Assembly: GCA_017518975.1 (NCBI GenBank)
Contig: JAFWTH010000099.1
Coordinates: 1 to 48,170 of the forward strand
From: Clostridia bacterium
GTDB taxonomy: Bacteria > Bacillota > Clostridia > Oscillospirales > CAG-272
Direction of reading: 5' to 3'
DNA: 48,170 nucleotides
Below, piece by piece: positions 23,464 through 41,907 of the stretch. The notes beneath the pieces were generated by a model, which saw only the letters and a list, made by a program, of their open reading frames with translations, was not told the DNA's origin and searched no databases. The position numbers and the translations under genes were made by a program. Numbering within the stretch: the first letter of the stretch is position 1; each line of letters opens with the position of its first letter.

Positions 23464-23493
23464 ACACTTTGCCGACGGGAAACCGGGGGCAAT

Positions 23494-23575
23494 GCGAGAG
23501 TGGCGGAACTGGCAGACGCGCACGTTTGAGGGGCGTGTGGTTCACACCGTACGGGTTCAAGTCCCGTTTCTCGCA
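23494..23575 (+). tRNA. tRNA-Leu (anticodon GAG)
   Basis: A complete class II tRNA of 82 bases. The acceptor GCGAGAG pairs with TTCTCGC; U8, the D-arm (GGAACTGGCAGAC), anticodon stem CGCAC/GGCGTG-type and loop with GAG, a short variable stem typical of Leu, the T-arm with TTCAAGT and discriminator A are all present. CCA is not encoded. Its own promoter precedes it and a terminator hairpin follows. Its 3' part is copied in inverted form just downstream. Confidence 0.95.
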
Positions 23576-23578
23576 TAG

Positions 23579-23608
23579 AAAAAGGGCACTCGAAGAAGTG
23601 CCCTTTTT
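23579..23608 (+). terminator. Intrinsic terminator of tRNA-Leu
   Basis: A 12-bp stem (23579-23590 / 23597-23608) with a 6-base loop and terminal T-run. The pairing continues outward without interruption into the tRNA acceptor sequence, giving 23 bp per arm (23568-23590 / 23597-23619). Confidence 0.88.
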
Positions 23609-23771
23609 CTATGCGAGAAATTGAACACGGGACTTGAAGGCGCCGCGTGTAAGCAAACAGTCCGGGGGACTGTTTGCCCGCGGCGTGACCGAGGGAGCGT
23701 CAGCATTTCGTATTTTGCGAAATGCTGACCCGCGCGACCGAGAACAAGTCCCGTCCGTACCGAAGGTACGG
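23597..23771 (+). repeat. tRNA-linked structured element, copy 1 (tRNA-Leu)
   Basis: After the terminator comes an inverted copy of the tRNA-Leu acceptor 3' strand (to 23619) and of its T-loop/T-stem (12 exact bases, 23627-23638), separated by 7 inserted bases. Then follow: hairpin 1 (23653-23663 / 23667-23677) inside an outer stem (23641-23647 / 23679-23685); a TGACCGAG box (23686-23693); hairpin 2 with loop TATTTTG (23699-23710 / 23718-23729); GAGAA and a direct 10-base copy of the T-arm (23745-23754); and hairpin 3 with a 3-base loop (23755-23761 / 23765-23771). The same order occurs beside tRNA-Ser. Confidence 0.8.
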
Positions 23772-23827
23772 CAAAAAGCGGATGAAACTTCAATTTGAGT
23801 TATTTTCAGATTTGAATGACAGTCCGG

Positions 23828-24022
23828 GGGTTGCGGACAGATAAACTTTTCCGTAATCGTTCGATACTGCTGTCCGCTCGAGTTTTGCGCATGAAGCGCA
23901 AAACTCCGGAAGAAACTGTATCTCTTCAGCCGAGCCCTGACCGAGCGCCCGTCATCCTTTCGTATTTTGCGAAAGGATGACTCGCGGGCGCGAGAATCAA
24001 GTCCCCCGCGCCAAAGGCGCGG
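23828..24022 (+). repeat. tRNA-linked structured element, copy 2 (no adjacent tRNA)
   Basis: A second, more diverged unit. It has a GCGGACAG/CTGTCCGC stem and a GAGTTTTGCGC hairpin, then a TGACCGAG box (23938-23945). Hairpin 2 has the same TATTTTG loop but a different stem (23951-23962 / 23970-23981). GAGAATCAAGTCCC follows, matching part of the Leu T-arm, then hairpin 3 (24006-24012 / 24016-24022). No tRNA precedes it, so it looks like a duplicated or orphaned copy. The left edge is uncertain. The 640 bases between tRNA-Leu and the next gene hold nothing else I can support. Confidence 0.65.
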
Positions 24023-41016: not shown

Positions 41017-41590
41017 GTTTTTGAATGAGGTGACTGCATTCTGAGCTGGCTGATACTGCGTGGCGGAGGAGGCTTCCCCTTGAGGGTAGCGAAGCGCACG
41101 GCGCGGTGGTGAATGACTGCGAACATATAAGGACACTGTATTTTGCAGTCACCGATGTTCGCTTGAAGTTTGCGCAGGAGCGCAAACTTTCGAAAGTATC
41201 CGTAATTGGTCAGAGCCGCTTTTGCAACAACCGCAGATCGCGGAAAGATCGACGCGAGGCGTCGATCTTCGGCAGACAGACGGTAACAATGAAGTACGCT
41301 TTTCTTTATTCTGTTTTTGCAACAACCGCAGATCGCGGAAAGATCGACGCGAGGCGTCGATCTTCGGCAGACAGACGGTAACAATGAAGTACGCTTTTCT
41401 TTATTCTGTCTGCAACCGAACCCCGCAGGGTAGACAAGGTGTCGCCGATAGGCGACGGATGAGGTGAGAAAGGGTACTGCATTTTGAACATGCCGTGCCT
41501 GCGGCGCGGAGTTAAGCCTTCCCCTTTGAGGGGAAGGTGTCGCCGATAGGCGACGGATGAGGTGAGAAAGGGTACTGCATTTCGAGCAGG
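41017..41590. repeat. Cluster of interspersed and tandem repeats upstream of tRNA-Ser
   Basis: A non-coding region with several layers. AATGAGGTGACTGCATT lies at its left edge. A 95-bp unit occurs twice in tandem (41221-41315 and 41316-41410), nearly identical and containing an AGATCGACGC/GCGTCGATCT hairpin. A GGTGTCGCCGATAGGCGACG block ending in GATGAGGTGAGAAAGGG occurs twice, 98 bases apart (41438 and 41536). A CTTCCCCTTTGAGGGGAAG hairpin lies between them. The GATGAGGTGA ends are the same as at 21820. No ORF is supported between 40922 and the tRNA. Confidence 0.75.
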
Positions 41591-41591
41591 C

Positions 41592-41779
41592 TGATCCTGC
41601 AAAGCAGGATCAGAGGGATTCGATTCTCAGGGGCGCGAAGTCAATTTTCGCAAAATGCGAAAATTGACGCCCCTTCGGTCACGGCGCGGTTCTGACAGCC
41701 CCCCGGGCTGTCATTCATTACCGCACCGCTTCGAATCCCTCCCTTGCTCTCTCCGAAAGGAAAAAGGAGCCCACTTCGT
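41592..41779 (-). repeat. tRNA-linked structured element, copy 3 (tRNA-Ser)
   Basis: Read on the minus strand from the tRNA. First comes the right half of the terminator palindrome with an inverted acceptor copy (41747-41771). Then an inverted T-arm copy (12 exact bases, 41730-41741) and an outer stem (41720-41727 / 41683-41690) around hairpin 1 (41693-41713, loop 3). A GTGACCGA box follows, then hairpin 2 with loop CATTTTG (41640-41650 / 41658-41668). GAGAA and an 11-base direct T-arm copy come next (41613-41623), then hairpin 3 with a 3-base loop (41592-41612). Order and spacing match the tRNA-Leu copy while stem sequences differ. Confidence 0.8.
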
Positions 41780-41790
41780 GGCTCCTTTTT
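41759..41790 (-). terminator. Intrinsic terminator of tRNA-Ser
   Basis: On the minus strand a GGAGCC...GGCTCC hairpin is followed by five T residues. The pairing extends outward into the tRNA acceptor to give 25 bp per arm (41747-41771 / 41780-41804). Confidence 0.85.
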
Positions 41791-41795
41791 CCTTT

Positions 41796-41884
41796 CGGAG
41801 AGAGAGGGATTCGAACCCTCGAAACCGTTTTGCGATTTACGCGATTTCCAGTCGCGCGCCCTCGACCAACTAGGCGACCTCTCC
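41796..41884 (-). tRNA. tRNA-Ser (anticodon GGA)
   Basis: A complete class II tRNA of 89 bases on the minus strand. Acceptor GGAGAGG pairs with TCTCTCC, the D-arm is GCCTAGTTGGTCGAGGGC, the anticodon stem CGCGA/TCGCG has loop CTGGAAA (GGA), the long variable arm is typical of Ser, the T-arm has TTCGAAT and the discriminator is G. CCA is not encoded. Confidence 0.95.
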
Positions 41885-41907
41885 GTGCCCCCAATCGGAC
41901 GAGTGGT

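Follow-up and report, generated by a model that had tools for sequence, protein, structure and literature searches.

The palindrome that follows the serine tRNA gene of the window (by which we mean the whole 48,170-nucleotide stretch of DNA analysed here) belongs to a family of repeats inserted in tRNA genes between nucleotides 55 and 56 of the T-loop, with duplication of the 3′ part of the tRNA, and bearing an inverted copy of the T-arm of the tRNA that they follow. Our tentative reading, to which we attach a little less than an even chance, is that we are looking at a copy of a palindromic, non-autonomous repeat which enters the T-loops of tRNA and tmRNA genes by fold-back (template-switch) synthesis. 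In the general order of the element, the 3′ part of the tRNA (D) is followed by the terminator hairpin, the inverted cognate T-arm (X′), a core of about 50 to 400 nt and a second direct copy of D. The core carries a perfect hairpin, P3, with the tip CCGGKGG, and the tRNA-linked copies have no recurrent mobility gene.

At the serine locus, all parts lie on the minus strand. The target gene, tRNA-Ser(GGA), occupies positions 41795–41885 (ARAGORN; Rfam RF00005, 54.9 bits), its 3′ part D, from the T-loop to the end, covering approximately 41795–41815. Read 5′ to 3′ on that strand, D closes the tRNA and is followed by a terminator hairpin that shares its end, the inverted acceptor strand, a 6-base break, X′, a two-hairpin core and X, a second direct copy of the T-loop and the 3′ strand of the T-stem. 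The terminator palindrome (41747–41804; inverted repeat and fold) includes the tRNA 3′ end and consists of two 25-nt arms, 41747–41771 and 41780–41804, which are 100% complementary and enclose an 8-nt loop; positions 41748–41755 match the inverted 3′ acceptor strand, a part of the inverted D (D′), at 8/8 bases. The interruption, GCAAGG on the minus strand, is a 6-nt gap at 41742–41747 that separates the two inverted parts, and X′ at 41730–41741 is the exact inverse of 41804–41815 (12/12 bases), a match that sits within a 15-nt pair at 93%. The core (41624–41729), delimited by alignment with 22 other copies and by structure prediction, comprises hairpin P3 (TGACAGCCC-GGG-GGGCTGTCA, 41693–41713; sequence and alignment) and hairpin P4 (41640–41668; inverted repeat and fold). 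These results uphold what the first-pass annotation had described here, namely the serine identity of the tRNA, the palindrome arms, the 12-base inverted T-arm copy and the roughly six inserted bases; it had overlooked the third, direct T-arm copy, X, a direct repeat at 41612–41623 that pairs with X′. Folded as single-stranded DNA, the terminator together with X′ gave a z of −10.0 and the X′-core-X unit a z of −9.4, none of 200 shuffles being as good in either case.

The layout recurs, as had been noticed, at a leucine tRNA, where the same order is found on the plus strand from 23493 to 23754. Here tRNA-Leu(GAG), the second target gene of the window (23493–23576; ARAGORN), is followed by a terminator palindrome of which the tRNA 3′ end forms part (23567–23620; inverted repeat and fold), an ATTGAAC interruption between the inverted acceptor strand and the inverted T-arm (23620–23626), X′ matching tRNA-Leu at 12/12 bases as an inverted repeat (23627–23638), a core defined by alignment and structure prediction (23639–23744, with P3 at 23653–23677 and P4 at 23699–23729) and X, the direct cognate copy (23745–23754). 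A second, tandem and partly rearranged core follows on the plus strand (23819–24005) and ends in a direct cognate copy at 23998–24005. The terminator with X′ and the X′-core-X unit, folded as above, reached z values of −12.5 and −8.1, respectively, again with 0/200 shuffles as good. The two tRNAs, which had been called unrelated, are indeed different tRNAs, but their sites hold copies of one repeat family.

As queries against the window's own genome, the leucine core found 16 matches and a shorter core from tRNA-Thr found 42 at E ≤10. Of 396 genomes of the order, 92 contained the P3 pattern, whereas none matched the reversed control pattern. A scan of named genomes for the T-loop-plus-P3 pattern yielded at least 120 stretches, the counts derived from it being those of samples; among the matches listed, most came from Oscillospiraceae, Ruminococcaceae and other Clostridia of guts and rumens. 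The sequences are mostly metagenome-assembled; one of the sources, Angelakisella massiliensis, is a named species. The matches listed, taken together with six viral contigs, comprised 131 occurrences, 80 of which lie within 260 nt after a tRNA, and these tRNA-linked copies span at least 28 kinds of tRNA. The other 51 have no usable upstream tRNA call, several of them being tmRNA or split tRNAs. Indeed, tmRNA also serves as a host, since ARAGORN finds one in five of the six loci tested; three of the five share a tag peptide and thus probably represent one species. In the surroundings of the pattern on the six viral contigs, at least two show tRNA 3′ ends, and we recognised no phage-borne version there. 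Two metagenome genomes labelled Planctomycetota (L317 and L354) contain a T-loop-like sequence with the P3 pattern and no tRNA called upstream.

Occupied and empty versions of the same gene document the insertion. The tRNA-Leu(TAG) gene is empty in genome G000, and in its congener G003 an insert of 172 bp stands behind nucleotide 55 of the T-loop. Beyond this insert, the two genomes can be aligned from the distal D across the terminator and on into the neighbouring gene, and the insert itself finds a match of at most 8 bases at the empty site. The flanking direct repeat of 47 nt runs from the T-loop through the terminator and ends just past the T-tract. At tRNA-Gln(TTG), where G000 is occupied and G003 empty, the flank beyond the terminator aligns likewise. 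The clearer of these two pairs shows duplication through the terminator. A regenerated tRNA with a displaced 3′ fragment, as in tRNA islands, is found in both pairs and in 56 of the 80 tRNA-linked copies, which have a direct copy of at least 18 nt starting mostly at positions 55–59. The direct copy reaches 49 nt or more, through the terminator, in 11 copies; in 45 it measures 18–28 nt and extends to about the end of the tRNA, a further 14 have a shorter one, and 10 have none within reach. At least 7 of the 8 bases of the inverted acceptor strand are preserved in 21 of the 33 genus copies (shuffles: mean 3.9, maximum 9) and in 7 of 76 copies elsewhere (shuffles: mean 0.5, maximum 4). The inverted middle copy is complete in a tRNA-His copy (L378), with all 23 nt inverted, and interrupted in most, including the recent Leu(TAG) insert. 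An ATTGAA/ATTTGA spacer separates the inverted acceptor from X′ in 19/33 genus copies, and this insert has one as well. The sequence turns at the terminator hairpin and the T-arm and, as judged by eye, rarely elsewhere (at the anticodon arm of tRNA-Met and the variable arm of tRNA-Ser(GCT)). We dropped the notion that the inversion always stops at T54, as some subfamilies invert the whole T-arm. Template-switch triplications show this same succession of direct, inverted and direct copies, turning at short inverted repeats.

The first-pass annotation had proposed that each copy reproduces the 3′ end of its cognate tRNA in inverted form, and that the DNA downstream of every tRNA in the genome and its relatives should be compared with its own and other tRNAs. 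In the four carrier genomes of the genus (G000, G001, G003 and G007), an inverted 12-mer with at most 2 mismatches to the cognate tRNA follows 33 of 117 tRNAs (9/35, 8/30, 9/34 and 7/18, respectively), compared with 1 of 65 in two congeners lacking the repeat (0/31 in G004 and 1/34 in G005), tRNAs with fewer than 120 nt downstream and two without a recognised T-loop being left out. In 30 of the 33, no 12-mer differing from the cognate at three or more bases fits as well, and the matches to random tRNAs that had been named as a refutation were not seen. In the 80 copies that follow a tRNA, X′ has no mismatch to the cognate tRNA in 33, one in 21, two in 19, three in 3, four in 3 and eight in 1, the last being a mis-called tRNA (L346). 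Omitting this one and three near-identical rows, we compared 76 copies from outside the genus with label shuffles. Observed matches at positions 59, 60, 62, 63, 64 and 65 were 74, 74, 71, 68, 46 and 45 of 76, against shuffled means of 33.6, 55.5, 51.9, 45.2, 22.4 and 24.3, and at these six of the seven positions 59–65 none of 2000 shuffles reached the observed match; position 61 is nearly invariant and thus uninformative. The cognate rule is therefore supported both within and outside the genus. It is true that the near-universal T-loop TTCGA makes about half of the 12-mer (positions 54–58) uninformative, as one would stress if these were ordinary long terminators with a chance resemblance to the T-arm, but the shuffles at the remaining positions and the near absence of cognate 12-mers in the congeners lacking the repeat refute this explanation, to which we give practically no credence.

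The comparison of cores indicates where X′ comes from. The tRNA-Thr and tRNA-Val cores of G000 are alike at 58 of 60 positions, and yet each X′ matches its own tRNA at 12/12 bases and misses the other by 3; similarly, the G003 Leu(TAG) core most resembles the Glu core, the X′ of which would leave 5 mismatches with tRNA-Leu. Near-identical cores with different, each time cognate, X′ imply that X′ is set by the target, so that cores travel and X′ does not. A carried-guide model, in which X′ would already match in the donor, is disfavoured by the same core comparison. In G007, a T-loop change of tRNA-Arg (TTCGAGT for TTCGAAT) is repeated in both X′ and X. Compared with MITEs, the terminal repeats X′ and X derive from the target and not from the element, and no autonomous copy was found among the ORFs of 126 loci.

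Of the two readings offered by the first-pass annotation, a mechanism and a function under selection, our results point to the former, in the shape of an insertion mechanism. We infer that the inverted copy originates in fold-back synthesis of DNA. A strand with its 3′ end in the T-loop, its last bases being the target's own X′, would prime on a donor core at the conserved TTCGAA; the primed strand would copy the core, fold back through the X′/X stem and re-copy the target's D, and a second fold-back at the terminator hairpin would rejoin the gene, producing direct, inverted and direct copies (a micro inverted triplication). Because the target strand itself would be copied, X′ and X would be cognate by construction and the tRNA would remain intact. 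Fold-back would also account for cores moving without X′, for the T-loop boundary and for the rare turns at other arms; the stem pairing described below, which fits DNA better than RNA, speaks for it too. Against it stand the failure of both enzyme candidates, UG26 and Y1 (below), the conserved ATTGAA/ATTTGA spacer, which simple fold-back does not predict, the 69 of 76 copies outside the genus with less than 7/8 of the inverted acceptor strand, several recent non-genus copies in which the bases between the terminator and X′ are not tRNA-derived, and many copies whose distal terminator differs from the proximal one despite an identical D. The split between carriers and non-carriers within the genus means that either the core itself is required as a donor or an enzyme is. 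It is possible, if doubtful, that we are dealing with a new class of mobile DNA that would, at each move, take up a complementary copy of the site that it enters, one core serving any tRNA or tmRNA T-loop through a dedicated reaction that makes the cognate arm and restores the tRNA.

The inverted copy could also be the work of a dedicated but unrecognised transposase or integrase that moves the core as a micro-element, cutting the T-loop on one strand and the tRNA or terminator end on the other, the duplicated target being filled in and X′ copied within the enzyme's reaction. The sharp left boundary at 55–57, the conservation of the core across the order, the distribution of 33/117 against 1/65 tRNAs between members of one genus and the non-tRNA copies at a fixed place within another repeat all speak for such an enzyme, as does the fact that the integrase crossover sites given for Islander in the available text of PMC4383910 (anticodon loop, T-loop and T/acceptor junction) are the same three places where copies turn or break. 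Nevertheless, we consider it somewhat unlikely, since a carried attachment site would retain the donor's tRNA end, and X′ and D are cognate, and since no gene recurs beside the copies: clustering of 1181 ORFs around the 126 loci revealed no common mobility gene, with the exception of a serine recombinase at four tRNA-less loci, and a coding relative beside the copies was rejected on that basis. Duplications of 46–67 nt are, moreover, unusual for transposases. A Y1/RAYT transposase was likewise rejected, as Y1 matches show no association with P3 over 396 genomes (37/92 with P3, 117/304 without; p 0.81); G003 and G007 carry copies without a Y1 match. At the four loci with a large serine recombinase gene near the copies (L319 and three others), the tRNA is reduced to a 3′ fragment; serine integrases are said, in the available text of PMC4383910, not to target tRNA genes.

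An RNA route would have a reverse transcriptase copy an element RNA at a T-loop nick, jump to the 3′ end of a pre-tRNA past the terminator and copy back to the T-loop, which would leave the duplication. Consistent with it, the direct repeats of G003 Leu(TAG), L395 and L360 stop at the terminator T-tract, where the transcript has its 3′ end, or no more than a few nucleotides away, and a UG26-family reverse transcriptase is present in the four genus carriers and G014 and missing in the two non-carriers. This link, striking within the genus, is gone over 396 genomes (UG26 in 4/92 P3 genomes and 11/304 others, p 0.76; any reverse transcriptase caught by the UG26 model in 26/92 and 90/304), so that the route through UG26 was rejected; besides, the enzyme of G000 is frameshifted, G022 has the element with no RVT_1 match, the inverted X′ goes unexplained and the stems lack G-U pairs. 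Regarding the latter, 16 of 27 predicted core pairs stay Watson-Crick with changes on both sides, and the 28 non-canonical pairs among 204 distinct P3 hairpins include 2 G-T and 0 A-C, an argument weakened by the many P3 stems preset by the search pattern. Conservation of this kind leans towards hairpins acting as DNA and not as folded RNA, without being proof. Altogether, the RNA route appears very unlikely. The UG26-group gene itself is single-copy and chromosomal and adjoins the same small gene in the four carriers and G014 (L228–L232).

Selected function, which we regard as quite unlikely, would make the element a tRNA-linked regulator in which X′ pairs with either the tRNA 3′ half or the distal X and could thereby switch read-through, 3′ processing or antisense transcription, selection keeping X′ cognate. 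The predicted folds do include two mutually exclusive stable hairpins that share X′, X′ follows the T-loop change of the G007 tRNA-Arg, and all seven element-bearing tRNAs of G007 also have the element in G000, although at Ser(TGA) what is left there is a split remnant. Yet the parts lie downstream of the terminator, so that a sense transcript should rarely reach them, 84 of the 117 tRNAs in the same genomes do without the element, the core type at the same tRNA varies between species, and the element itself scores below the cut-off of every Rfam family. Scanned with the Rfam 15 covariance models, the window reached the gathering score for tRNA only, and six loci reached the cut-offs for tRNA and T-box only.

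Elements that target tRNA genes mostly carry a single, fixed tRNA end. Here, one core type follows at least 28 tRNA kinds and tmRNA, nearly always with the right tRNA's sequence, and the elements must either write the target into themselves on insertion or be held to match it. To our knowledge, the palindromic hairpin elements of mitochondria have no known enzyme. According to the available text of PMC4478555, these elements (yeast GC clusters and double-hairpin elements) resemble ours in being short, GC-rich, palindromic, gene-free and sporadic, with modules that merge, but they are not described there as tied to the T-loop or as carrying an inverted target copy. Genomic islands in tRNA and tmRNA genes likewise leave the target gene intact, displace a 3′ fragment to the far end and use the T-loop as well as the anticodon loop (PMC4383910, available text), whereas our element measures about 60–330 bp, has no genes or integrase, carries an inverted cognate copy and hits many tRNAs with one core; as Islander, according to the same text, rejects candidates below 2 kb or without an integrase, it would not list this element. 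Template-switch inverted triplications share the direct-inverted-direct order and the turns at short inverted repeats (available text of PMC10766183) and differ from ours, in which the copies are only a few tens of bp long and recurrent, with a conserved core in one turn. Bacterial REP/RAYT and MITE-like repeats are, in the available text of PMC2229807, many-copy intergenic palindromes as well, unlike ours in that our element shows no link to a Y1 transposase, targets tRNA and has target-derived arms. In the literature texts available to our search, we found no published description of the element, and the three P3 stem sequences tried were not found in print there. If fold-back is the true origin, these copies are a natural, datable record of bacterial template switching; if a dedicated enzyme is, its targeting principle is one that we did not find in the same texts.

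Several neighbouring or related arrangements were also observed. Two copies of a CTTCCCC..GGGGAAGGTGTCGCCGATAGGCGACGGATGAGGTGA repeat lie beside the serine element, at 41480–41590 and 41420–41460 of the window; elsewhere in this genome, at sites remote from tRNAs, the repeat also contains inserted P3 cores, at a single fixed position. Window positions 41230–41420 hold a tandem pair of repeats of about 100 bp (GTCTGTCTGCCGAAGATCGACGCC...), a relative of which splits the core of the element behind tRNA-Gln(TTG) in this genome. The P3 hairpin also occurs within a longer multi-hairpin repeat in other genera, away from tRNAs (AAAGTTTTCGCCCGCC...CAGTCCGGTGGACTG...GGGGTTCCCC; near base 1500 of loci L262, L263, L267, L269 and others), for which no Rfam match was obtained at the one locus searched, L262. 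In the genome of the window, tRNA-Ser(TGA) and its element are separated (L044 and L053, on contigs C89 and C136): an intact tRNA is followed by an integrase-like sequence, and a 3′ fragment is found on a different contig together with the terminator, X′ and two cores. Finally, tRNA-Cys in G005 (L129), a congener without P3, is followed by a direct-inverted-direct layout with an unrelated 30-base middle.
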